A DNA stretch of 27,337 bases, taken from the IMG/VR virus record IMGVR_UViG_3300025684_000056, positions 1-27,337 of that record; one strand, 5' to 3'. Below the pieces are notes generated by a model, which saw nothing but the letters and a program-made list of their open reading frames with translations, did no database searches and was not told the DNA's origin. The stretch's first letter is position 1; each line of letters opens with the position of its first letter. This document shows positions 2,653 through 21,263 of the stretch, in pieces. This DNA comes from a virus. The position numbers and the translations under genes are program-made.

Positions 2653-3225
2653 ATGGACTTCCTATCAACACCACTACCTGTAAGCACAGGCACTGAAGAG
2701 AACTTTGTATATAATCCGTATCGTGTTGGTGGCATGTGGGGCTTAAAACAATCACCTGAACACACGGCAAAAATAAGCAAACCAAAATATGTCTTTCAAG
2801 GCAAAAGTGCTGGAGACTGGGCAAAAATACTTGGTGGTGATTATGGTGTTATTAGACATCATATAAAAAATGGCACTATGGAGCAATATAAAACTTATTG
2901 TAAATGGGCTAATATACCATGCACTGCAATCAACAAAAATCTAAAGATAATCTACAAAGGCAAAGCTGTTAAAGAATGGGTAAAAATACTTGGTGGTGAT
3001 CGTGGCACTATTAGACATCATATAAAAAATGGCACCATGCACGAATACAGAACTTATTGCAAATGGGCAAACATACCTTACACGAAAAAAACAGTAATAA
3101 AGCACTACTTCCAAGGTAAAACAGTTAAACAGTGGGCAAAAATACTTGGTGGTGATCCTGGCACTATTAGAAAGAATATGCAAAATGGCACTATGGAGCG
3201 ATATATTGAGAAAAAAACAGGTTGA
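2653..3225 (+). CDS. Three-repeat NUMOD-like DNA-binding protein, cassette copy 2
   Basis: 190 residues. The N-terminus MDFLSTPLPVSTGTEE matches the preceding gene; residues 26-45 (GGMWGLKQSPEHTAKISKPK) are a good NUMOD3-like motif. Three repeats of 52-53 residues follow, beginning near 46, 99 and 151, with core FQGK-x-W-A-K-ILGGD-x-G-x-IR-x6-NGTM; the third is cut short by the stop. The spacing (conserved Trp, Ile-Leu-Gly-Gly turn, then Ile-Arg) suggests a helix-turn-helix fold like those linked to phage HNH and GIY-YIG enzymes. No nuclease domain is present. GAGGG precedes the ATG. Inferred role: sequence-specific DNA binding, target unknown. Confidence 0.7.
   Translation: MDFLSTPLPVSTGTEENFVYNPYRVGGMWGLKQSPEHTAKISKPKYVFQGKSAGDWAKILGGDYGVIRHHIKNGTMEQYKTYCKWANIPCTAINKNLKIIYKGKAVKEWVKILGGDRGTIRHHIKNGTMHEYRTYCKWANIPYTKKTVIKHYFQGKTVKQWAKILGGDPGTIRKNMQNGTMERYIEKKTG
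2788..3222 (+). repeat. Three tandem intragenic repeats (about 156-159 bases)
   Basis: Units 2788-2946, 2947-3102 and 3103-3222 (the last truncated). Identity is high at DNA level, for example ATACTTGGTGGTGAT occurs in all three and ATTAGACATCATATAAAAAA in the first two. The near-identity of silent positions suggests recent duplication. Confidence 0.85.
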
Positions 3226-3958: not shown

Positions 3959-3996
3959 AAGCAGTAAAACTGGCCCATTTTACACCCGCTTTTTTA
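3959..3996 (+). terminator. Rho-independent-type terminator after early genes
   Basis: AAGC-A-GTAAAA, an 8-base loop CTGGCCCA, TTTTAC-ACCC-GCTT, running into six T residues. The inner 6-bp stem is perfect and the outer 4 bp pair across a small asymmetric bulge. It lies between the last small gene and terS, where early and late transcription should be separated. Confidence 0.55.
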
Positions 3997-4004
3997 ACAG
4001 TTCG

Positions 4005-4012
4005 CATAAATA
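4005..4012 (+). promoter_or_regulatory. T4-late-like promoter octamer before terS
   Basis: CATAAATA, one mismatch from the T4 late octamer TATAAATA. By T4 geometry the start would fall at about 4018, the A of the terS ATG. The octamer sits mostly in the loop of a 6-bp inverted repeat, ACAGTT (3997-4002) and AACTGT (4012-4017). No ribosome binding site lies upstream of the ATG. Confidence 0.45.
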
Positions 4013-4017
4013 ACTGT

Positions 4018-4488
4018 ATGAAACAAGAAAACAACGATAGACCCAAAGGATGGGGCAAGAGAGGTCCTCTACCCAAAGCCCCAGTAGAAGGTGTAATAAC
4101 AGGCCTTCCAGTTGGTCGTGACAAAACAGTAGTGCCCCAAGATCAAGTTGAAGAACTAGCAGGTCTTGGATGCACCAACAAAGAGATTGCAAACTTCTTT
4201 GGAGTTAAAGAAGATGCAATAAGCAGAAACTTCGCGGTAGAACTTGTAAAAGGCCGTGAAGGTATGAAGATAAAACTAAGGCGTGCAATGTTCAAGAACG
4301 CTGTCGTAAACGAAAACACCACAATGCAAATATGGCTCAGCAAACAGTATCTAGGAATGACAGACCAACCTGTTAACAGCGAAAGCAATGCTGCATTGCC
4401 ATGGAGCAACGAATCATCAACAAGTATAGGAGAAACATATGACGATGAAGAACTCAGGGACGATATCCCTAACACCAGCCAACAGTAA
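4018..4488 (+). CDS. terS: Terminase small subunit
   Basis: 156 residues. The frame is open upstream to 3856, but 4018 is the only plausible start; the extension would overlap the preceding gene and cross the terminator. Residues 43-71 (QVEELAGLGCTNKEIANFFGVKEDAISRN) form a helix-turn-helix like that of small terminases, which recognise the packaging site. Residues 79-117 (GREGMKIKLRRAMFKNAV...TMQIWLSKQYLGMTD) match the typical small-terminase pattern of a GR-x helix followed by W-L-K-x-x-x-G. The C-terminal 40 residues are acidic and Ser-rich, likely the flexible tail that contacts the large subunit. The large terminase lies 1.5 kb downstream. No SD sequence precedes the ATG, so the message may be leaderless. 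Confidence 0.8.
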   Translation: MKQENNDRPKGWGKRGPLPKAPVEGVITGLPVGRDKTVVPQDQVEELAGLGCTNKEIANFFGVKEDAISRNFAVELVKGREGMKIKLRRAMFKNAVVNENTTMQIWLSKQYLGMTDQPVNSESNAALPWSNESSTSIGETYDDEELRDDIPNTSQQ

Positions 4489-4714
4489 AACAGAGTTTAG
4501 TTTAGAAAACTTTATCAAGCAGGCCAAAAATCAACCTGTGCCCAACACTGACGCAGGCATACAAAAACTAGCCAACAACTATGCAGACTTGCTCAAGCAC
4601 AGTGAAATCGTAGTTGACAGTATGTTCAACGAAAACCGCAGAAAAACACCAGGCAAAGACCTGCTGCAAAGTTACCACAACATATTAACACACATCAAGC
4701 GAGGCAGCGAATAA
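4439..4714 (+). CDS. Hypothetical protein overlapping terS
   Basis: 91 residues. ATG 4439 lies 50 bases inside terS in another frame, with a strong AGGAGA 8 bases upstream. Residues about 18-90 are helical (SLENFIKQAKNQ; IQKLANNYADLLKHSEIVVDSMFNENRR; LLQSYHNILTHIKR). The first 17 residues are Ser/Thr/Asn-rich and probably disordered. Family not recognised. Its place between the terminase genes suggests a packaging-linked or host-directed accessory role, but nothing in the sequence confirms this. Confidence 0.7.
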   Translation: MTMKNSGTISLTPANSKTEFSLENFIKQAKNQPVPNTDAGIQKLANNYADLLKHSEIVVDSMFNENRRKTPGKDLLQSYHNILTHIKRGSE

Positions 4715-5199
4715 TGAGTAATCTTGCAAAACTATGTGATGACATGAACGATTACATCAACACCAAAGGTGAACTTCCTAGTAGCACTAGCAACAGCGGA
4801 TTCTTAAACCAATGGCACAACTTAAACAATCAGTATTGGATGGACTTGTTTGGAGATGCGTATGCAGTTCATGACAACACCAAATGGTGTATGCCGTATT
4901 GGCTTGAAGCCCAAGTTAAACAGTTGGTTGATCATCTCAACGCCTACGCAAGCCAGCATCCTAATGTGTTGAATCCTCCAGTAAATGAAATGTATCAACT
5001 TCCAAGGGGTGCATATCTTGAACATCCTAATGTAAAGAAAAGTAAAAGTATAAAAACTATCTTGTGGCACACTATGATGAACTTGCGTGAAGAAGTTTAC
5101 AATCCAGCGATGGGTATCTATTTGCCCAACAAAAACTCTAGCATTGGATTACTTGATCCAGTAACTGCACCAGCACAAACATTATTTGATTGGAACTAA
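4714..5199 (+). CDS. Hypothetical protein, Trp/Asn/Pro-rich
   Basis: 161 residues; the ATG shares its first base with the previous stop (TAATG). The sequence is rich in Trp, Asn, Tyr and Pro (LNQWHNLNNQYWMDLFGDAY, WCMPYWLEAQVKQLVDHLNAY). There is no signal peptide, membrane segment, Cys cluster or recognised catalytic motif. Residues around 60-85 are helical; the C-terminal half looks loop-rich. Family and function unknown; it is part of the small-gene block between the terminase genes. Confidence 0.7.
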   Translation: MSNLAKLCDDMNDYINTKGELPSSTSNSGFLNQWHNLNNQYWMDLFGDAYAVHDNTKWCMPYWLEAQVKQLVDHLNAYASQHPNVLNPPVNEMYQLPRGAYLEHPNVKKSKSIKTILWHTMMNLREEVYNPAMGIYLPNKNSSIGLLDPVTAPAQTLFDWN

Positions 5200-5200
5200 C

Positions 5201-5374
5201 ATGAAGTTTATTTACACCACCAACCAACTACCTGTCTACAACTTCGCCAAACTAGGCGGAGTATTAGCGGAGGACAACACTGTTGAACTCACTGATGATG
5301 CATACCAGCGTTTCTTGTTTGAAACCAAGCTGGACTCACACACTCTAACACTATACAAGGAACCAGGATTATGA
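5201..5374 (+). CDS. Small hypothetical protein
   Basis: 57 residues from ATG 5201, one base after the previous stop; an upstream TTG at 5186 would overlap that gene and has no better binding site. The sequence alternates hydrophobic and polar residues (MKFIYTTNQLPVYNFAKLGG), suggesting a small beta-rich domain. Family not recognised. Its TGA stop overlaps the next start (ATGA), so translation is probably coupled. Confidence 0.65.
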   Translation: MKFIYTTNQLPVYNFAKLGGVLAEDNTVELTDDAYQRFLFETKLDSHTLTLYKEPGL

Positions 5375-5839: not shown

Positions 5840-5996
5840 TCAGCTTGAATACCTCAGCAATGGATTTGTTGAACTTGCTGGTTTGCTCAACAGGCAGCAA
5901 ACTCATATGGAAAGTATAATGCGACACATACGAGCACAAGAACGAGCCATGCAAGACCTCAACATGAGATTGACCAACCTTGAGATACAGAAATGA
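5811..5996 (+). CDS. Short coiled-coil protein before large terminase
   Basis: 61 residues; ATG 5811 lies 29 bases inside the previous gene, with AAGAAAGA upstream. From about residue 18 to 60 the sequence is a regular heptad-like helix (VELAGLLNRQQTHMESIMRHIRAQERAMQDLNMRLTNLE), so it probably forms a coiled coil. Its stop overlaps the terL ATG as ATGA. Short coiled-coil proteins near terminase genes could be oligomerisation or adaptor factors, but no family was recognised. Confidence 0.65.
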   Translation: MLNNDYDPFDQLEYLSNGFVELAGLLNRQQTHMESIMRHIRAQERAMQDLNMRLTNLEIQK

Positions 5997-7225
5997 AACT
6001 TGCACCGTGGCAACAAAAGGTCAGTGATGACCCCAGTAGGTTTAAATGTATAAGTGCGGGCAGACGCAGTGGCAAAACGTATCTGGCCATTAGAGAGTTG
6101 TGCTGGTATGCACATCAACCCAACAAGAACGTTTTCTATGTTACAAGTTCATATCGTGCTGCAAAGATGATTGTTTGGAAACCACTCAAAGACAGACTGT
6201 TGGATCTACGTTGGGTAAAGAAGATCAACGAAAGTGAACTGAGTATAACACTAAAAAACAACAGTGTGATTTCACTCAAAGGTTCAGAGAACATTCAAGC
6301 ACTGAGAGGTATCAGCCTTTCATATTGCGTTATAGATGAAGCAGCATTTTGTGATCCTGATTTATTTCCAGAAGTAATCAGACCAGCACTTGCTGACCAA
6401 CGTGGCGATGCTATGTTTATTTCAACTCCTTGTGGTAAGAACAACTACTTCTATGACCTGTTCAATCTAGCCAAAACCACACCAGGCTGGAACAGTTGGA
6501 GCATGACCACACTTGAAGCAGGAATGGTAGACCCTGCTGAGATTGAAGCAGCACGAGCAGAAATGACACTCAGCCAGTTCAAGCAAGAGTTTGAAGCCAG
6601 CTTTGAAGATGTGGGCAACAGAGTGGCCTATTCGTTTGAACGTGATCACAATGTCAAGTCATATGAGGGTCCAAAACCCAAAGAAACTCTTATTGGAGTT
6701 GACTTCAACAGAAATCCTATTAGTGCAACTGTAGGACACAGATCAGGTGATACTTTCTATGTCACAGATGAGATCCTTATATACTCATCAAACACAGACG
6801 AACTGGTGCAAGAAATACATCACAGATATCCCAACCAAAAAGTTTATGTGTTTCCAGACCCTAGTGGCAGTAGACAGCAAACAAGTAGTAGTGGCAAAAG
6901 TGATCACACTATATTGAGCAATGCTGGTTTTCAAGTTAGAGCACCACGCAAGCATGATCCTGTAAAAGATAGAATCAATGCAATCAATGCAAGATTCTGC
7001 AACAGTGATGGAGTTAGAAGATTGTTTGTTGACCCCAAATGCAAGCACACAATAGAAAGCCTAGAAAAACACAGCTACAAACCAGGAACTGTAATACCAG
7101 ACAAGGAAAAAGGGCACGACCATGTTTTTGACGCACTCTCATACTGTATTGCATACCTCTATCCAATAAGAAGACCTGCACCAGAGCCTACAGCACAGAG
7201 TTGGAGTGCCAAAGTCAGCCTTTAA
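5993..7225 (+). CDS. terL: Terminase large subunit
   Basis: 410 residues. The N-terminal ATPase has an adenine-binding motif (APWQQKV, 4-10), Walker A AGRRSGKT (22-29), Walker B YCVIDEAA with Asp115 and Glu116, and coupling motif ISTP (143-146). The C-terminal RNase H-like nuclease has GVDFNRNP with Asp237, FPDPSGS with Asp289, and GHDHVFDALSY with Asp376 and Asp380, the usual metal-binding acids. All key residues are present, so it should be an active packaging motor and headful or site-specific cutter. It works with the small subunit at 4018 and the portal at 7302. The start overlaps the upstream stop by four bases. Confidence 0.95.
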   Translation: MKLAPWQQKVSDDPSRFKCISAGRRSGKTYLAIRELCWYAHQPNKNVFYVTSSYRAAKMIVWKPLKDRLLDLRWVKKINESELSITLKNNSVISLKGSENIQALRGISLSYCVIDEAAFCDPDLFPEVIRPALADQRGDAMFISTPCGKNNYFYDLFNLAKTTPGWNSWSMTTLEAGMVDPAEIEAARAEMTLSQFKQEFEASFEDVGNRVAYSFERDHNVKSYEGPKPKETLIGVDFNRNPISATVGHRSGDTFYVTDEILIYSSNTDELVQEIHHRYPNQKVYVFPDPSGSRQQTSSSGKSDHTILSNAGFQVRAPRKHDPVKDRINAINARFCNSDGVRRLFVDPKCKHTIESLEKHSYKPGTVIPDKEKGHDHVFDALSYCIAYLYPIRRPAPEPTAQSWSAKVSL

Positions 7226-11357: not shown

Positions 11358-11858
11358 ATGGCATTCATTGTTGAAAATAATATTACAATAAGTTTTGCAG
11401 AGTTCACAGATGTCTTTAAGACTGATGTGCGTCTGTTTGACAGCAATGAAAGTCTTACTGATGACACTGTGGAAGCAAGTTTGATAAGATGCACCAGCAG
11501 AATATTAGACAACATTCGCAACACAGATTGGTGGCAGGGCCTGTATTCACAACACACAGGTTCTGTCAACCGCATTGACATTCCCTCTCCTGATCCTGAT
11601 CGCATAAAGAGTAGACTCAATGACTTCACAGACTTGTGTGTTTATTGGGCTCTCAGCGATTATATATTGCCCAGCATTGCAGACTTTGGCGATGTTGACA
11701 GCAACGAAAGACAGAAGATGGGCTACTACAAGAACAGAGCAGATGAGTTGTTTTTGGAGTTGGTTAATGCAGGTGATTGGTATGATTTTGACAATGACGG
11801 TTCAGTGCAAACTGATGAAAAACGTCAGGGTAACCTAACATTGAAAAGGGTGCGATAA
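11358..11858 (+). CDS. Head-tail connector (adaptor) protein
   Basis: 166 residues, 10 bases after the capsid gene, with AAGGGG upstream. The sequence is helical (DDTVEASLIRCTSRILDNIRNTDWWQG; RIKSRLNDFTDLCVYWALSDYILPSIADFGD), with an acidic C-terminal loop (YDFDNDGS). Position and helical pattern fit the gp6-like connectors that bind the portal and form the adaptor ring. The stop shares its last base with the next ATG. Confidence 0.65.
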   Translation: MAFIVENNITISFAEFTDVFKTDVRLFDSNESLTDDTVEASLIRCTSRILDNIRNTDWWQGLYSQHTGSVNRIDIPSPDPDRIKSRLNDFTDLCVYWALSDYILPSIADFGDVDSNERQKMGYYKNRADELFLELVNAGDWYDFDNDGSVQTDEKRQGNLTLKRVR

Positions 11859-12244
11859 TGAGAGATCAAGTTATAGAATATATTACGGCAGCGCCGCTTG
11901 GACGCTATAACTTCAGCAGGGAGATACCATACAGAGAAAATGGTATTCAACTACATCTCAAGAATCCTCTTACAATATATGTGGACGAAGAGGACTTTCA
12001 AACACAAAGTCTTTTTCGCACACTAGGTGGCCACAACATTGACGTCTTAACAACAACTGTTGAAATCAAGTTCAGCAATGATGCAAAGAATACACCCAAC
12101 AACTACGGTGAGATAGTGAGTTATTTACTGGCTGGCAAAAACCTAGGCACTGGCTTCAATGATGCCACTGCAAGTTTGAGCACAGAGATAGTGGAAGATT
12201 TACAAAGCACAACCGTAGAACTACAATATACAAAGCTAATATAA
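11858..12244 (+). CDS. Tail completion/terminator-like protein
   Basis: 128 residues, coupled to the connector gene (ATAATG) with AAGGG upstream. The pattern DQVIEYITAAPLGRYNFSREIPYRENGIQLHLKNPLTIYVDEEDF and a C-terminal VELQYTKLI suggest a small alpha/beta fold like tail terminator proteins (lambda gpU type), which cap the tail tube and join it to the head. Position between connector and tail tube genes supports this; sequence evidence alone is modest. Confidence 0.6.
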   Translation: MRDQVIEYITAAPLGRYNFSREIPYRENGIQLHLKNPLTIYVDEEDFQTQSLFRTLGGHNIDVLTTTVEIKFSNDAKNTPNNYGEIVSYLLAGKNLGTGFNDATASLSTEIVEDLQSTTVELQYTKLI

Positions 12245-12254
12245 GGAAAGCAAC

Positions 12255-12749
12255 ATGGCAAACTATATCTACCCAGCTCCAGGAACTAGCAATGTAGAAG
12301 CAACACTAAAACTAAAAGTGGCTTCTAACGGCGCTGACACTGGACTAACAATACCTAGTTTACAGGATATCACTGTAAACGCTGCCAACGATACGTTTAC
12401 CTGGACACAGCTAGATGAAGGTTCTAAACAACAGATTGCTACAACAGCAACCAACAGTTTGAACACAAACCTAGTGTTGAACCAAACTACATTTTTTGGA
12501 ACAACTGGTTCAGGCGGAACAACAGCAGCAGCACTGGGCGTCTTTGGCGCCTCAACAGACAAAACATTGATGACATTCTCATTGTATATGGGCGACGAGA
12601 GCGATGGCTCTGCAGGCAAATATCTTGAGGGCAACGGATATGTTACTGGTCTGGCTCCAACAGTTAGTGCTGATGAACCTGTATGGGTTTCACCAGTTAC
12701 TATTTCAATCACAGGTGATTACACTGTGGCTGACAGCGGAACATTCTAA
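12255..12749 (+). CDS. Major tail tube protein
   Basis: 164 residues, Ser/Thr/Gly/Ala-rich and beta-rich, with AAGGA before the ATG. It begins MANYIYPAPGTSNVEATLKL and ends with an Ig-like strand pattern (VWVSPVTISITGDYTVADSGTF). Its location before the frameshifted chaperone genes and tape measure is diagnostic for the tail tube subunit. A strong terminator-like hairpin directly after it suits a very abundant message. It should assemble hexameric rings along the tape measure. Confidence 0.75.
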   Translation: MANYIYPAPGTSNVEATLKLKVASNGADTGLTIPSLQDITVNAANDTFTWTQLDEGSKQQIATTATNSLNTNLVLNQTTFFGTTGSGGTTAAALGVFGASTDKTLMTFSLYMGDESDGSAGKYLEGNGYVTGLAPTVSADEPVWVSPVTISITGDYTVADSGTF

Positions 12750-12755
12750 AAACAA

Positions 12756-12784
12756 GAAATAGGGCTCTTTGAGGGCCCTATTTC
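12756..12784 (+). terminator. Strong hairpin after tail tube gene
   Basis: GAAATAGGGC-TC-TTTGA-GG-GCCCTATTTC: 10 perfect base pairs extended by a G-U and a C-G, with a 5-base loop. The T-run is short (TTTC-ATT), so it could be a partial terminator or a structure that protects the tail tube message and lowers downstream expression. Confidence 0.65.
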
Positions 12785-12804
12785 ATTATAAGGTTAAATA
12801 CAAT

Positions 12805-13050
12805 ATGGATCAAAAGAAAGAAGACACACTGAAGGACAACAGTGATCTAGAGTTGTTGAGTGTGTTGTTGCGTGAAATAGCCAAAGCAGGCAATGAAATA
12901 CGCAGCGCAGAAAAAGATGCAAGCAAGGCAAGCCGCAGATTAAGTTTTGCGATTGTTTTGGCAAATAGATTATTAGATAGGAAAAAGATCAATGGATTTG
13001 AGAGCAGCCGCAGTAAAACCCAAACTACAGAAACTCACATTAGACAGTGA
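12805..13050 (+). CDS. Small helical tail-module protein
   Basis: 81 residues from ATG 12805 with AAGG upstream; the longer frame from 12769 would cross the hairpin. The main part is a charged helix (LELLSVLLREIAKAGNEIRSAEKDASKASRRLSFAIVLANRLLDRKK). The last 20 residues are polar and overlap the chaperone gene by 59 bases. Family not recognised; the place suggests a tail assembly accessory. Confidence 0.65.
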   Translation: MDQKKEDTLKDNSDLELLSVLLREIAKAGNEIRSAEKDASKASRRLSFAIVLANRLLDRKKINGFESSRSKTQTTETHIRQ

Positions 13051-13312
13051 ATATGTAACAGCAGAATATGGCGAACCCTTAGACTTTTATATGTGGGATC
13101 GTCAGAGTATGCCAACTTATATCAACCTCAGCACAATCAGCAACGATGACACCGCGGGCATGTTAGATGCAATCCGCGCACTCGTGATGGACGAACATGG
13201 CAAACTGATGTTGGAAGAAGGCATGGAACTGCCACCACAGGTTATGATTGATATGATCAATAAGGTGGTAGAGCACTTGGGAAACTCCGTAGGCCAGACT
13301 TTAGCAAAATAG
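12992..13312 (+). CDS. Tail assembly chaperone, short form (gpG-like)
   Basis: 106 residues, with AGGAAA before the ATG. It has an N-terminal beta part (LQKLTLDSEYVTAEYGEPLDFYMWDRQ) and a helical C-terminal half (LEEGMELPPQVMIDMINKVVEHLGNSVGQ), as in lambda gpG-type chaperones. It lies between tail tube and tape measure. A slippery GGGAAAC near its end lets some ribosomes continue in the -1 frame to 13548, giving the G-T-like fusion of about 185 residues (98 + 87). Both products would coat the tape measure and recruit tube subunits during tail assembly; they do not stay in the virion. Confidence 0.85.
   Translation: MDLRAAAVKPKLQKLTLDSEYVTAEYGEPLDFYMWDRQSMPTYINLSTISNDDTAGMLDAIRALVMDEHGKLMLEEGMELPPQVMIDMINKVVEHLGNSVGQTLAK
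13279..13285 (+). promoter_or_regulatory. Programmed -1 frameshift site GGGAAAC
   Basis: Zero-frame codons are TTG GGA AAC, so the heptamer reads G GGA AAC, the same X-XXY-YYZ form as lambda GGGAAAG. Slipping back one base continues as CTC CGT AGG CCA GAC TTT with no stop until 13548. The zero-frame stop is 25 bases downstream. Confidence 0.9.
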
Positions 13313-15552: not shown

Positions 15553-16157
15553 TGTCGTTTCAACCAGTATTTGACAACGCAAGTGATATGCAAATATCAA
15601 ACAGAAGATTTGTTTCACAAACACAAACACGTTCAGGAGTTGTTCGCAGTGTTGCACAAAACAACAGCATATGGAGATTCACAGTCACACTTGCAGATGG
15701 GCAACCTTGGGAGAACTGGAGAACATACATTTCAGGTTATGAACAACTCAACAGATACACTTCAAACACAATAAACCTTAGCCAAAGCGGATTTGCTTGG
15801 ATGTTTCCTTATCAAGGCGATGAAAGCAACATTGCCAATCTAAGAGTGAGTGTTATCAACGGAGAGTTGAGAGTGCAGAGTGGAGTTACAATAACAAGTG
15901 GTTATTTGTTTCTTGTGGGTGATATCATACAACTGGTAGGTGGTAGAGTTTATCAAGTTACACAGCCAGTGTTGTGGAGTGATACCAGCATCAGCACACA
16001 CAGAGCACCAGTTGATGAAGCTGTGGGCACATACGATACCAACATAGGTGCGCTTGCACAATGGGATGTGGTTTGCACAAGTATGCCCAAGTGGAGATTT
16101 ATGGATCACAAACGAGTTGCTTGGGATGGAGCATTTGAGTTCCAGGAGGTTATGTAA
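15552..16157 (+). CDS. Distal tail / tail-tip protein
   Basis: 201 residues; the ATG shares one base with the tape measure stop, with GGGAGAAG upstream. It is beta-rich (VVRSVAQNNSIWRFTVTLADGQPWENWRTYISGYEQLNRYTSNT...). Position directly after the tape measure and before a DUF2163-like gene and the gpJ-like hub mirrors the tip order of lambda-like and gene-transfer-agent tails, where DUF2460 or distal tail proteins occur. It should form part of the ring that closes the tube. The exact family is uncertain. Confidence 0.65.
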   Translation: MSFQPVFDNASDMQISNRRFVSQTQTRSGVVRSVAQNNSIWRFTVTLADGQPWENWRTYISGYEQLNRYTSNTINLSQSGFAWMFPYQGDESNIANLRVSVINGELRVQSGVTITSGYLFLVGDIIQLVGGRVYQVTQPVLWSDTSISTHRAPVDEAVGTYDTNIGALAQWDVVCTSMPKWRFMDHKRVAWDGAFEFQEVM

Positions 16158-16798
16158 TGACCACTAGCCTACAAAGTCTAGATCATATTCAAAGTGTGTT
16201 GTTGATTAGATGGACCATCTACAACTACAGAGAAGATCCCAGTGACTTTCCAAACACACAGGTGTTGAGATTCAATGACAGCATACGTGACATAGACTTA
16301 ACAGAAGGCGGTGCAAGTGTTACATATTCAGGCTTGGGTCCATTGGTTTCATTTAGCAGCACAAAGAACAGTATTAGAAGCAGTGGTGCAGGAACTGCCT
16401 TAGGACTTGCAGGCGTTCCAGATTATGAAATACAAACACTGTTGGCTTCAGACATCAAAGGCAGCAGAATAGAAATATTTAGATTCCTACAATATCCAGG
16501 TGGCAACAGTGCCATTGCAGATTTAGATTTCACAGGTGGAGCCACAGGTGGAGTGATAGGAAGATTTTCAGGATTTGTAAACACCTACAGCATCAACGAT
16601 GACATCAATCACACCAGTGACACTAGACTGGTTGAAGTGGTGTTGGATTGTGTGAACAACACATATCTTGTGAGCAAGCTGGTTAGAGGTGTTAGAACAA
16701 ATCCCATAGACCTAAGATACTTGAGCACAGACGAAGCAGGATTTGACAATGTTCCAAGTTTACACGAAAGCGAATGGTATTTTGGAGGAAGCAGATGA
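16157..16798 (+). CDS. Tail-tip protein, DUF2163/gpL-like
   Basis: 213 residues, coupled to the previous gene (TAATG) with AGGAGG upstream. It is beta-rich throughout. The C-terminal pattern GVRTNPIDLRYLSTDEAGFDNVPSLHESEWYFGG matches tip proteins where a TNP turn, an acidic loop, F-D-x-V and a terminal W-x-F-G occur. Lambda gpL binds an iron-sulphur cluster; the cysteine set for that is not obvious here. It overlaps the next gene (ATGA). Confidence 0.65.
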   Translation: MTTSLQSLDHIQSVLLIRWTIYNYREDPSDFPNTQVLRFNDSIRDIDLTEGGASVTYSGLGPLVSFSSTKNSIRSSGAGTALGLAGVPDYEIQTLLASDIKGSRIEIFRFLQYPGGNSAIADLDFTGGATGGVIGRFSGFVNTYSINDDINHTSDTRLVEVVLDCVNNTYLVSKLVRGVRTNPIDLRYLSTDEAGFDNVPSLHESEWYFGGSR

Positions 16799-17592
16799 GT
16801 TTCATAACCAATGTAAAAGAACAACTATACAAGATCAATGAGTATGCAAATCTCATACAAGGAGATAGGCTCAACGAACTACTGTTGAATCAACGTGTGA
16901 TCACAGGTGATACCAATGTGATTACAGCACAAACAAACCTAATCAAAACCAGCACAAACCAAGTTGAAGCAGAACAAAAGCCTGTAAACAAGGCTGTGAG
17001 AATACAAGTGTCACCAGATCCAGAATACAAGATTCCAGTGTTGTATGGCAGAACCACAATGGGTGGAGCAGTCACAGATGTTTGCACAGTCAACAACGGC
17101 AACGAACTTCAGTTTTGTGTAACACTAGCAATGACCACAGGGCCTAAGATTGATGGCACAGCAACCACATACGAACTAAAAAATGTTTACATAGACAATC
17201 AAAAACTCAACTTCAACAGTGGTGGACAGATTGCAGCAAGTTTGACTGACACAGAAGGCAACACCAACACCAACTATGCCAACTTGGTTGGAGCATACTT
17301 GTTTGACAGCAGCACCGTATGGGTAAAGCCCGCAGGCTTTGAAGGCTTGGGCAATCTAGATGCAAGAAATGTATTCAACACTTGGACACCAAATCACCTA
17401 ATGCCAAACCTGTTGTTTGGTATTGTAAGAGTTGCTTGGAACCCAGACTTAGGATTACAAAATATTCCAGACGTAAGGTTTGACATACAAAGTTCAATGA
17501 ACCTACCAGGTGATGTGTTGTATGATTACATGCGATCCTCAGTATACGGTTGCGGACTCAGTGATGATTTAATAAAGGCGACTTCAATATGA
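16795..17592 (+). CDS. gpJ-like tail hub, N-terminal part (split)
   Basis: 265 residues from ATG 16795 (GGAGGAAG 6 bases upstream); a longer frame from 16774 overlaps the previous gene. After a helical N-terminus, residues about 66-130 (VRIQVSPDPEYKIPVLYGRTTMGGAVTDV..., FCVTLAMTTGP, ATTYELKNVYIDNQKL) match the start of lambda gpJ-type hubs. The end (GDVLYDYMRSSVYGCGLSDDLIKATSI) is where an intact gpJ would continue to its next domain. The frame stops and overlaps the 746-residue gene as ATGA. The rest of the hub is in the gene at 19839. Confidence 0.75.
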   Translation: MSFITNVKEQLYKINEYANLIQGDRLNELLLNQRVITGDTNVITAQTNLIKTSTNQVEAEQKPVNKAVRIQVSPDPEYKIPVLYGRTTMGGAVTDVCTVNNGNELQFCVTLAMTTGPKIDGTATTYELKNVYIDNQKLNFNSGGQIAASLTDTEGNTNTNYANLVGAYLFDSSTVWVKPAGFEGLGNLDARNVFNTWTPNHLMPNLLFGIVRVAWNPDLGLQNIPDVRFDIQSSMNLPGDVLYDYMRSSVYGCGLSDDLIKATSI

Positions 17593-19829
17593 CAATAAGC
17601 AGTTTACAAGACCTAAACACATACGCACAAACACCTATAACCTACGATGATGTAAGAACTGCACAAGTGATATTTGATAGAGGTGCCACAGTTGATCAAA
17701 CATTGGTCACACCTGAAAATGGTAAGTTTGTTAGCCCTTGGGGTATCAACATAGAAACAATAACACAACCTGATGTTGCAGAAGTAGAATATCATTTAGA
17801 CTACAGTGCATTTGCAGATCCAATAAGTGTAACCTGGGCTTATTTGCCAGCACACATGACTGTAACCAGAACCAACAACACTTGGATTGTCAGCGGAATA
17901 GAAAACAGTGAAGATTGGTTGTATGCAAGAGCTGCAACAGTATTACCACCGTTTGGATTTTCAGGAGTTGTAGCACACAGTGCAGCCATTCACTACTACA
18001 GCGACACACAAGACAGCACAAAAAACATTGCAAGTTGGGACATCAATCTAACAGTTACACAAGTTGAATATTTCAGTGTGCCTGCACCATTAACCTATGT
18101 GAGCAACACACTCTACAGTCAGTTGAACACTTGTCGTATCACTATTGATCCAGAAGATTTTGATCCAGTGTGGGACTTGAGAATATACAGTGCAGATGAA
18201 ACTCTAACACCTGTGGATGCCATTGAAGAAATGTTCTCAGATGGAAGTGCAGCAGAAGCAACTTGGAACAACAACCTCAATCAATACATTGTCACAGGAG
18301 ACACTGGCAGCATCAATGAAGTGTTGGACACATTGGACCTTGAAACAAGAAGATATGCGGATGATTTTAAGTTGGTGTTTAGACTTGCCAACAACTTTAC
18401 AAACGACTTGGAATATCAAATACAAAGTTTTGCCAGTAGAGACATGATCAGTGATCCAGTTGTTGCAGCAGGGTTAAGCAGCACTCCTAACTATATATTT
18501 GGTGGTATTGCAAATCCAGTGAGTCATGCAACAAGCAGCACAACCTACAACTTGATTAGAGATCCAAATCCAACAGAAATAACTGCAACTTCTAATGCCA
18601 GCACTGTTCCAAATGCAATATGGGATCCAACTTCAACCTTAGACAGCGCATTTGACATAGTTCCAAATGGCGGATATTTGCTTGAAGGCGGTGCAACTAT
18701 AACTGCTGAGTTTGGCATAGTTCCAAATGGCGGATATCTATTAGAGCACGAAGCATCAGGCATGACTACAAATGCAAGTGTTCAGAGTTGGCCAATACAA
18801 TACACCAGCGAAGATCTAGTTATTACGTTTGACCGCACAGGAATCACAGGTTCATCAGGAGATCCAGCACAAGAAATATATATGAAATCGTTTTCTCAAA
18901 ACACCCCTAGCCAGAACATTCCAAGCGGCTTTAGCATACTATGGGATACGCCAGGCGGAAATCAAGCAACACAAATAGTTGGCACCTCGCCTGTAAAGTT
19001 TCCAAATGCACTACAAGACAATCGCACATATGCAACAGCAGTTATATCACCATACACTAATAGTGGAACAACTTACTACCCTTATGGCATTGAATACAAT
19101 ACTGATGGCAGTGTAAAGTATGCAACAGGTATAGTATATGGCGGAAGTTCTATGATTGCAAGCGTGGACAGTTGGGGCAACTTAAACCCAGAAGCATACG
19201 CAGGTATTTGTGAGGGCGGCACTATCACAAGCATTAATAGCAATGCTCCAACTGGAAGTATAAATCTAACATCTGCATTTGAAAATGCAAGTATTTCAAG
19301 CAGTGTTGTAACCACACTTGAAAGTTTTGATATGAGCAATGCGACAACTATTGAGAGTATATTTAAAAATACAAACTTCAACAGCAATACATTAGATTCT
19401 AGTGCTTGGGACACCAGCGGCCTAACTTCATTGCGTAATGCGTTTAACTCATTGAGCATCAGCGAACTAACTGGAATGGGAAGCTGGGATACCAGTAATG
19501 TAACTGATATGAGTTATGCGTTCTTTGGAACAGACTGCACAGTTGGCGAAGCAGGTATTGCTAACTGGGATACTAGCAGTGTAACCAACATGGAACGTAT
19601 GTTTAGAAACAATGAAAGTTTCAACAACAATATAAGCGGTTGGGATGTGAGTGCAGTTACAAACATGGAAGAAATGTTTATGAATACTACTCCGTATTTG
19701 AATCCAGGCAGCAGTGGATTTGATCAAGACATAAGTGGTTGGGATGTAAGTGCAGTTACAAACTACACAAACTGGGATACAGACAGCAACCCCAACTGGA
19801 CCAGCGATGAAAAGCCAACATTTACATAA
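17589..19829 (+). CDS. BspA-type LRR protein inserted in the tail hub locus
   Basis: 746 residues. The first 19 (MTISSLQDLNTYAQTPITY) read as a continuation of the hub's middle. Residues 30-290 are beta-rich, Ig-like modules with no clear family. Residues 358-385 hold a duplicated IVPNGGYLLE. Residues about 556-726 contain BspA/DUF285 leucine-rich repeats: SWDTSNVTDMSYAF, NWDTSSVTNMERMF, GWDVSAVTNMEEMF, GWDVSAVTN. These repeats are known from bacterial surface proteins and mediate binding. AAGG precedes the ATG and ATGA overlaps the previous stop. I infer a host-binding tail-tip subunit or a large insertion that split gpJ. Confidence 0.75.
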   Translation: MTISSLQDLNTYAQTPITYDDVRTAQVIFDRGATVDQTLVTPENGKFVSPWGINIETITQPDVAEVEYHLDYSAFADPISVTWAYLPAHMTVTRTNNTWIVSGIENSEDWLYARAATVLPPFGFSGVVAHSAAIHYYSDTQDSTKNIASWDINLTVTQVEYFSVPAPLTYVSNTLYSQLNTCRITIDPEDFDPVWDLRIYSADETLTPVDAIEEMFSDGSAAEATWNNNLNQYIVTGDTGSINEVLDTLDLETRRYADDFKLVFRLANNFTNDLEYQIQSFASRDMISDPVVAAGLSSTPNYIFGGIANPVSHATSSTTYNLIRDPNPTEITATSNASTVPNAIWDPTSTLDSAFDIVPNGGYLLEGGATITAEFGIVPNGGYLLEHEASGMTTNASVQSWPIQYTSEDLVITFDRTGITGSSGDPAQEIYMKSFSQNTPSQNIPSGFSILWDTPGGNQATQIVGTSPVKFPNALQDNRTYATAVISPYTNSGTTYYPYGIEYNTDGSVKYATGIVYGGSSMIASVDSWGNLNPEAYAGICEGGTITSINSNAPTGSINLTSAFENASISSSVVTTLESFDMSNATTIESIFKNTNFNSNTLDSSAWDTSGLTSLRNAFNSLSISELTGMGSWDTSNVTDMSYAFFGTDCTVGEAGIANWDTSSVTNMERMFRNNESFNNNISGWDVSAVTNMEEMFMNTTPYLNPGSSGFDQDISGWDVSAVTNYTNWDTDSNPNWTSDEKPTFT

Positions 19830-19838
19830 GGAACCAAT

Positions 19839-21098
19839 ATGGGACAACAACAAATCTTTACCATCAACGGATTGGTAGACACAAACAAAACAGTTTGGCA
19901 AAACTTGGAAGAACTTGCAGGTGCAAGTGCAGCCTATGTAACTTGGGATCCATACACATTTAAATATGGAGTGGTGATCAACCAACCTGGCAACAGTATT
20001 AGAAGCTTCAACGACAACAACATCATTGGTGCAATCAGCATCACTGAAACACCCTTTGATGAACTCTACAACAGTGCAGAAATAAGATTCCCCAACAAAG
20101 ACATACGTGACAAAACAGACACCATACTTTATACTCAACCACCTGCAGAAAGATTTGACAGTGAACCAGACAACAAACTTTCAATACAGTTTGATTTTGT
20201 AAATGATCCTATTCAAGCAGATGTTATTGCAAGAACAGAACTCAAGCAAAGTAGAGTCAGCAAGACCATCAGCTTTACCACTGACTTTCAACAGTTGGAC
20301 ATGGCACCAGGTGACATCATTGACTTGACCAATCCTTACTGGGGTTGGAATGCCAAACTGTTTAGAATAGTTGAAATCACACAAACTGACACAGTGCAAG
20401 GTGAGATATTTGTGGACATAGTTGCAGTTGAATATGATGCAGATGTCTACAACTACAATGATCTCACAAGACTTGAAAGAACTGTAAACACAGGTGTTCC
20501 AGCAGTTAAAAACAATGCGGCAGTTCAAACCAAAAGCGATGAAGTGTTGGGCACACAGGTTAGTAGAGCAACTGTTACAGATGCCACAGGCACACAAACC
20601 ACAGCGTTTCCAAAACTTGCCAACTATGAAGTCACACAAACAACCACTGTATTGGATACCAAACTAAACAGTGCCACACCATATGGAAGTATACTAACAC
20701 TTGATGCAGTCAGTGGTGGTGCAAAACTATTGCAAATAATGATAGAAGGTCCAACGGCAGTGGTAGATTACACAACTTACATTGACGAAGTCAGCACAGC
20801 ACGTCAATACACAGGCAGCGTTCCGTTGTTTGTTCAAGTTGAATACAGTGTGGACAATGTAACATACAGCTTGATAGGTCAAAGATTTTTGGAGTGGACC
20901 AACAACACCACAAGTTTCAACTTTACAGATGTTGACAATGGATACTACAGAGTGAGTTGCAGCAAAACAGACACATTGGTGCTGGACCAAGATGACGGAA
21001 CAGCAGGCATTGGAAGCACCGTTGCCATTGGCACAGTTGCAACAATAGCAACACCAACTGGATATGGTGCAAAAGAAACATACATAATATTGGAGTAA
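19839..21098 (+). CDS. gpJ-like tail hub, C-terminal part (split)
   Basis: 419 residues with its own AAGGAACC site, 9 bases after the BspA-type gene. It starts in mid-domain for a gpJ: FTINGLVDTNKTVWQNLEELAGASAAYVTWDPYTFKYGVVI matches the Phage-tail_3-type hub domain, followed by NNIIGAISITETPFDELYNSAEIRFPNKDIRD, EPDNKLSIQFDFVNDPIQADVIARTELKQSR and DMAPGDIIDLTNPYWGW. The last 150 residues are fibronectin-like beta strands. It probably assembles with the product of 16795 to form one hub, completing the tail tip that contacts the receptor. Confidence 0.8.
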   Translation: MGQQQIFTINGLVDTNKTVWQNLEELAGASAAYVTWDPYTFKYGVVINQPGNSIRSFNDNNIIGAISITETPFDELYNSAEIRFPNKDIRDKTDTILYTQPPAERFDSEPDNKLSIQFDFVNDPIQADVIARTELKQSRVSKTISFTTDFQQLDMAPGDIIDLTNPYWGWNAKLFRIVEITQTDTVQGEIFVDIVAVEYDADVYNYNDLTRLERTVNTGVPAVKNNAAVQTKSDEVLGTQVSRATVTDATGTQTTAFPKLANYEVTQTTTVLDTKLNSATPYGSILTLDAVSGGAKLLQIMIEGPTAVVDYTTYIDEVSTARQYTGSVPLFVQVEYSVDNVTYSLIGQRFLEWTNNTTSFNFTDVDNGYYRVSCSKTDTLVLDQDDGTAGIGSTVAIGTVATIATPTGYGAKETYIILE

Positions 21099-21101
21099 AA
21101 T

Positions 21102-21263
21102 ATGTGGTATTACTATTACGACAGCAACTCAGGAGAGTTTACAATGGGATCAAACAAACCATACGCTTTCACAGACGATCCTCATATTCGTGAGAACAAG
21201 AAGTTCAACATGGAAACACACCGTGTAAACCTGGCAACACTTGAGCCTGAACCAAAGAACTAA
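21102..21263 (+). CDS. 53-residue hypothetical protein
   Basis: ATG 21102 is preceded by GGAG about 7 bases upstream, at the end of the hub gene; stop TAA 21261-21263. The sequence starts MWYYYYDSNSGEF and ends in a charged tail (VNLATLEPEPKN), with no membrane segment or cysteine. Codon choice fits the neighbours. Family not recognised; the position between hub and fibre genes suggests a tail-tip accessory. Confidence 0.6.
   Translation: MWYYYYDSNSGEFTMGSNKPYAFTDDPHIRENKKFNMETHRVNLATLEPEPKN

Follow-up and report, generated by a model that had tools for sequence, protein, structure and literature searches.

Phage tails are least conserved in where and how their receptor-binding modules attach. 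The hub locus of virus record IMGVR_UViG_3300025684_000056, a contig analysed over its full 27,337 bases (hereafter the window), raises this question, as the domains of its gpJ/pb3-type hub, the protein that closes off the tail tip, are spread over three open reading frames instead of lying in one polypeptide, and the middle frame encodes a 746-residue protein ending in repeats of the kind found on cell surfaces (Table 1). Is this a working hub, and how does the protein encoded between its pieces relate to it?

Three genes in place of one hub gene

The contig encodes terminase, portal, scaffold, major head protein and tape measure upstream of the hub genes. PHROG searches recovered the expected gene order, with the tape measure (13795) followed by two tail proteins (15552, a weak distal tail match, and 16157) and then the hub; neither a second copy of gene 3 nor another hub was found in the 27,337-base record. 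The second tail protein gene (16157–16798) overlaps gene 1 directly, and the window lacks the gene that P19250A, HTVC112P, DSL-LC06 and CRP-823 have immediately ahead of the hub. Directly after gene 3 lies a gene for a conserved 53-aa tyrosine-rich protein (MWYYYYDSNSGEFT...; 21102–21263), also present in the close three-gene relatives L001 (from 9257), L005 and L057. Elsewhere in the window, an HNH-endonuclease-like gene (2653–3225) harbors a 159-base imperfect tandem repeat of 2.4 copies (2818–3195).

Gene 3 matches PF13550 (Pfam, E = 1.7e-9), phrog_31 'central tail fiber J' (E = 6.5e-27, from profile position 580) and, in a search of PDB sequences, the T5 pb3 chain (E = 1.3e-12, from pb3 residue 522), with hub homology covering residues ~1–226. 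Gene 1 alone gave zero hub matches in Pfam, PHROG and NCBIfam; it is assigned to the hub because relatives hold the gene 1 sequence and gene 3 within one ORF. By this route the original prediction, which took gene 1 for the first part of a gpJ-type hub and had gene 3 begin in the next hub domain, is borne out, for gene 3 by all three matches. Profile searches likewise returned DUF285 for gene 2, whereas the continuous hub coverage anticipated across genes 1 and 3 is gapped: besides the missing family match for gene 1, ~20–25 hub residues are absent between the two genes and are encoded by the start of gene 2.

Searches with gene 1, and then with its family alignment, collected about 85 hub loci, of which 67 non-identical hubs formed the counting set. 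The gene-1 and gene-3 regions lie in one ORF, ~20–25 residues apart, in 38 of these 67; four hubs consist of two genes, two are cut off, and 23 are of the three-gene (insert) type, a number that includes contigs with gene 3 cut off as well as the fused locus L034; ~20 distinct relatives have three genes. L001 shares the layout of the window at 46–61% protein identity, and a search with the single middle protein retrieved only two near-identical contigs in the collection. A single hub gene is present in all the cultured relatives examined, namely Methylophilaceae phage P19250A, the two pelagiphages HTVC111P and HTVC112P, phage DSL-LC06 and roseophage CRP-823; searches of cultured phages and genomes found the three-gene form in no cultured phage, and a search of bacterial genomes for a host gave one pattern match and zero relatives.

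The first break falls after GDVLYDYM...YGAGI....., at the same place in every split hub, and its junction is nearly always a short stop–start overlap; in L037 the stop precedes the start without ATGA. The two-gene loci (L025, L026, L028 and L029) have the same first break and carry the intervening hub segment on the C-terminal chain, and in L034 a single ORF (3966–5255) comprises gene 1, this segment and the insert and ends at a stop ahead of the C-terminal hub gene. The tree of hubs needs at least four changes of split state. Because a single clade for all split hubs is disfavoured (AU p = 0.02, quick tree), splitting or re-fusion has probably happened more than once. One uninterrupted hub, that of L031, is followed by a separate BspA-type LRR_5 protein (11645–13057).

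Estimates of dN/dS were 0.14–0.31 for genes 1 and 2 (0.18–0.31 for gene 1, where computable) and 0.21–0.22 for gene 3, indicative of purifying selection on all three. Since the arrangement is found again in diverged phages and all three genes bear this mark of selection, it is not an assembly error; an assembly or frameshift artefact is ruled out by the recurrence of the split in many contigs and samples, the low dN/dS and a dedicated ribosome-binding site. Upstream of the second gene, anti-SD pairing averaged −6.5 kcal/mol in 24 split loci vs. −1.7 for 33 single-gene hubs at the homologous position (p = 2e-8, kinship uncorrected), the typical split-site SD sequence, GCGGAGATT, lying within gene 1. 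Ahead of gene 3 stands TAAGGAACCAATATG, where TAAGGA precedes the third ATG, and a TAAGG-type site precedes nearly all third genes checked. Judged from these comparisons, a ribosome-binding site has arisen at the split, which appears to be a working arrangement. The ATGA overlap and fresh SD from which three translatable genes had been predicted are present at the expected junctions. Uninterrupted relatives, which might have pointed to one gene broken by frameshift or misassembly, do exist, yet the split is recurrent and selected.

Table 1. Features of the divided hub locus, in window coordinates.
Feature	Position	Strand	Basis
Gene 1, N-terminal part of J/pb3-type hub, 265 aa from ATG 16795, ends ...GDVLYDYMRSSVYGCGLSDDLIKATSI	16795..17592	+	Relatives with one ORF
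AAAGG, weak ribosome-binding site for gene 2, inside gene 1	17574..17578	+	Anti-SD pairing −4.4 kcal/mol
ATGA, gene 2 start overlapping gene 1 stop	17589..17592	+	Sequence; most split relatives overlap likewise at this position
Gene 2, middle protein, 746 aa, proposed hub-anchored receptor-binding protein	17589..19829	+	
Anchor, gene 2 residues 1–22 (MTISSLQDLNTYAQTPITYDDV)	17589..17654	+	Homologous to the hub segment that neither gene 1 nor gene 3 encodes
Two beta-sandwich (Ig/cadherin-like) domains, residues ~24–160 and ~168–284	17658..18440	+	AlphaFold2, Foldseek
Low-confidence linker with two 20-residue repeats (IVPNGGYLLE at residues 357 and 377)	18441..19268	+	pLDDT ~30
DUF285 / TIGR02167 (PARCEL) repeats, proposed binding tip	19320..19778	+	PF03382, 7.4e-32; TIGR02167, 5.9e-12
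AAGGA, ribosome-binding site of gene 3, overlapping gene 2 stop	19828..19832	+	Sequence
Gene 3, hub from INGLVDT strand on, 419 aa, short C-terminal part	19839..21098	+	PF13550, phrog_31, pb3

A hub segment at the start of the middle protein

In single-gene hubs, the two regions are linked by the sequence SLTALNTYSxxxVTYTD, after which come a short turn and YQINGLVDT; the INGLVDT strand is where gene 3 and its counterparts start. A profile built from single-gene hub linkers only was run on all 2533 ORFs and had its top match at the start of the post-split gene in 24 of 27 split loci (a few of which are near-copies of one another), where ~1 would be expected by chance. In the window it found MTISSLQDLNTYAQTPITYDD (E = 0.013), ranking first of 112 ORFs, and at the starts of two-gene C-terminal chains it scored 2.7e-8 (L026) and 4.9e-9 (L028); matches were weak (E above 10) in L020, L023, L033, L035, L044 and L075. 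The sole residues invariant across 15 middle proteins, L6, L9, N10 and D21, all fall within this anchor. On this sequence evidence, the N-terminus of the middle protein is homologous to the missing hub segment. Separate chains and an inserted module, originally posed as alternatives, both seem to apply and need not exclude each other, with the breaks flanking one short hub segment. Locus L007 encodes two tandem middle genes (5908–6324 and 6327–7172) whose bodies are homologous (7e-10; 31% identity over 111 aa); the hub anchor is present on the first (E = 0.03), and the match on the second is not significant.

The segment was placed in the hub fold using an AlphaFold2 model of the uninterrupted relative L060 (residues 1–599), in which most 10-residue blocks from 81 to 490 reached pLDDT 77–94. 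This model resembles lambda gpJ (8xcg_F; Z = 21.8, 2.9 Å over 337 residues) and T5 pb3 (E = 3.5e-25), and also matches RcGTA and R4C. It contains a helix at 259–269 and strands at 273–277 and 281–285 (L060 sequence index), the helix and first strand corresponding to the anchor: the first break lies ahead of the helix, and the insert sits at the hairpin turn between the two strands, a site that by sequence equates to about pb3 485–523. The turn is probably surface-exposed, to judge from the large inserts accepted there. The anchor alone has low AlphaFold2 confidence (pLDDT 55–59), as would fit a segment that docks on partners.

Body and exchangeable tip of the middle protein

The two beta-sandwich domains behind the anchor were modelled at pLDDT mostly 70–95 and are conserved among close middle proteins; Foldseek matches of the middle protein were generic, of Ig/cadherin-like type. 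The DUF285 repeats, confined to the last ~170 residues and modelled at low AlphaFold2 confidence, clearly exceed curated cut-offs (PF03382, 110 bits vs. 25; TIGR02167, 45 vs. 30). LRR_5 (PF13306, BspA-type) is absent among the Pfam matches of gene 2 up to E = 1, so that of the original description of this protein as a DUF285, BspA-type LRR protein, the DUF285 assignment holds and the BspA-type LRR_5 does not. Codon fit is lower in residues 330–746 than in residues 1–330. No inverted repeat at the repeat periodicity was found in the repeat-coding DNA, the published dyad-symmetry test having used a motif search instead. The repeat family is shared with PARCEL/DUF285 (TIGR02167) surface proteins. 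Its known members are chiefly cellular membrane proteins or lipoproteins, whereas in the window the repeats form the end of a protein from a phage tail operon; other phages are known to encode DUF285-like proteins as well, though not in a hub. PARCEL repeats are reported to be abundant in marine sequence (PMC2996958).

Middle proteins range from 550 to 1080 aa, and their tips differ: DUF285 in the window and L001, LamG in L005, L022, L044 and L047, RCC1 in L033, FG-GAP in L057 and weakly in L023, and Gly-rich in L020 and weakly in L005 and L042. The middle proteins of the window and L057 are 43% identical over their first ~360 residues, with no significant similarity beyond, although identity reaches 52% for gene 1 and 61% for gene 3. 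Because L057 keeps these ~360 residues under an FG-GAP tip while genes 1 and 3 remain alike, tips are exchanged on a conserved base. The middle protein is thus most likely a receptor-binding module, presumably docked by completing the hub fold, and domain exchange and position make the DUF285 tip a putative host-binding element. Receptor binding could also reside elsewhere, since other fibre-like genes lie downstream (21821, 22811 and 23905).

The C-terminal hub part has a median of 504 aa in three-gene phages vs. 786 aa in single-gene ones and measures ≤633 aa in 15 of 15 three-gene phages (p = 5e-4, kinship uncorrected), and some single-gene clades have an equally short one. A shorter C-terminal part would fit a relocated binding function, a reading that is only suggestive.

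A probable hub of three chains, its rivals and its known counterparts

We consider it probable that the locus encodes a gpJ/pb3-type hub of three polypeptides, in which the middle protein is docked by its hub-derived anchor and displays an exchangeable tip. The N-terminal hub domains would come from gene 1, those after them from gene 3, and the short helix–strand element in between from the opening ~20 residues of the middle protein. This element would dock the middle protein non-covalently, presumably in three copies per trimeric hub, so that the hub displays two Ig-like spacer domains and an exchangeable C-terminal tip, here DUF285/PARCEL repeats, that may recognise the host surface. Translation would pass from gene to gene through the stop–start overlap and the dedicated ribosome-binding sites.

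A different, rather unlikely role for the middle protein is that of a separately translated assembly, plug or decoration factor of the tail tip, with the anchor merely tying it to the hub. The precedent is lambda gpI, a separate chain encoded between L and J that augments the gpJ sheets and plugs the tube or tip lumen (PMC10721106), and the part conserved among close middle proteins is indeed the N-terminal ~285 residues. Neither the size of these proteins nor their variable tips resemble a plug, however; the tips are known binding or display folds swapped between relatives, and gpI, which corresponds to the HDII insertion, has a different insertion point.

Continued production of a fused hub, with frameshifting at ATGA or protein splicing joining genes 1 and 2 so that the hub is partly covalent, seems very unlikely. 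The overlap does place gene 2 in a neighbouring frame, and L034 offers a natural fusion of gene 1, anchor and insert, but reading of the junctions revealed no slippery heptamer, Pfam scans of gene 2 and of the middle proteins of relatives no intein or Hint domain, and Rfam no known RNA element or intron in the window (zero matches). A dedicated SD at the split and junctions such as that of L037 also speak against it. Least credible of all is a decayed or misassembled hub that a selfish or foreign ORF has inactivated: horizontal spread is known for DUF285/PARCEL repeats (PMC2996958), and the weaker codon fit of the distal part of gene 2 would suit a foreign origin, but the layout recurs over many contigs and samples with conserved break points, dN/dS is low for the genes concerned, and no other hub was found in the record.

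The proposed three-chain hub with a docked middle protein has partial counterparts in known tails. T5 pb3 (7zhj; PMC10038345) and the hub part of lambda gpJ (8xcg, 8k35) probably share its fold and hub domain order, as gene 3 and the uninterrupted relatives indicate by sequence and L060 by model, but both are unbroken across the segment where the window hub chain is cut twice, around a helix–strand element, with the middle protein in between. Lambda gpL, gpI and gpJ together correspond to T5 pb3, with a similar case in RcGTA gp13/gp15 (PMC10721106); as in the window, the hub scaffold is distributed over several ordered chains with an extra gene between. There the break separates HDI and HDII-insertion from the rest, whereas the window break lies further downstream, just after GDVLYDYM...YG, and the intervening protein of the window, unlike theirs, carries a hub piece and an exchangeable tip. 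Binding domains within the hub are known as well: the roseophage R4C megatron has a carbohydrate-binding domain within the hub chain (PMC10276861), and in HTVC112P (L054) the gene-1-like and gene-3-like regions of the hub are separated by an in-frame PA14/GLEYA domain (residues 293–399). Both hubs thus contain a domain of sugar-binding type, in HTVC112P within the same inter-domain segment as the window insert, but as one unbroken chain without a separate gene. Divided hubs and hub-inserted binding domains are already known; the window hub differs from them in where its chain is broken and in that a hub segment has moved to the N-terminus of an adhesin whose gene lies between those of the hub pieces. 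Among open-access papers we found no report of this break with the shared anchor.

It is an evenly balanced possibility that the hub is structurally incomplete without its adhesin, in which case the ~20-residue hub piece would be a portable docking tag that completes the hub fold in trans and lets tips be swapped without touching the hub. If so, two or more tagged proteins could vie for the same slot, a situation to which the two tandem middle genes of L007 may correspond. More generally, uninterrupted hubs, two-chain hubs and three-chain hubs with an adhesin between the pieces are visible in one set of relatives. The adhesin's hub fragment predicts docking site and stoichiometry, making the modular exchange of host-recognition parts testable, and the short motif may let annotators spot hub-anchored adhesins in uncultured aquatic phages.
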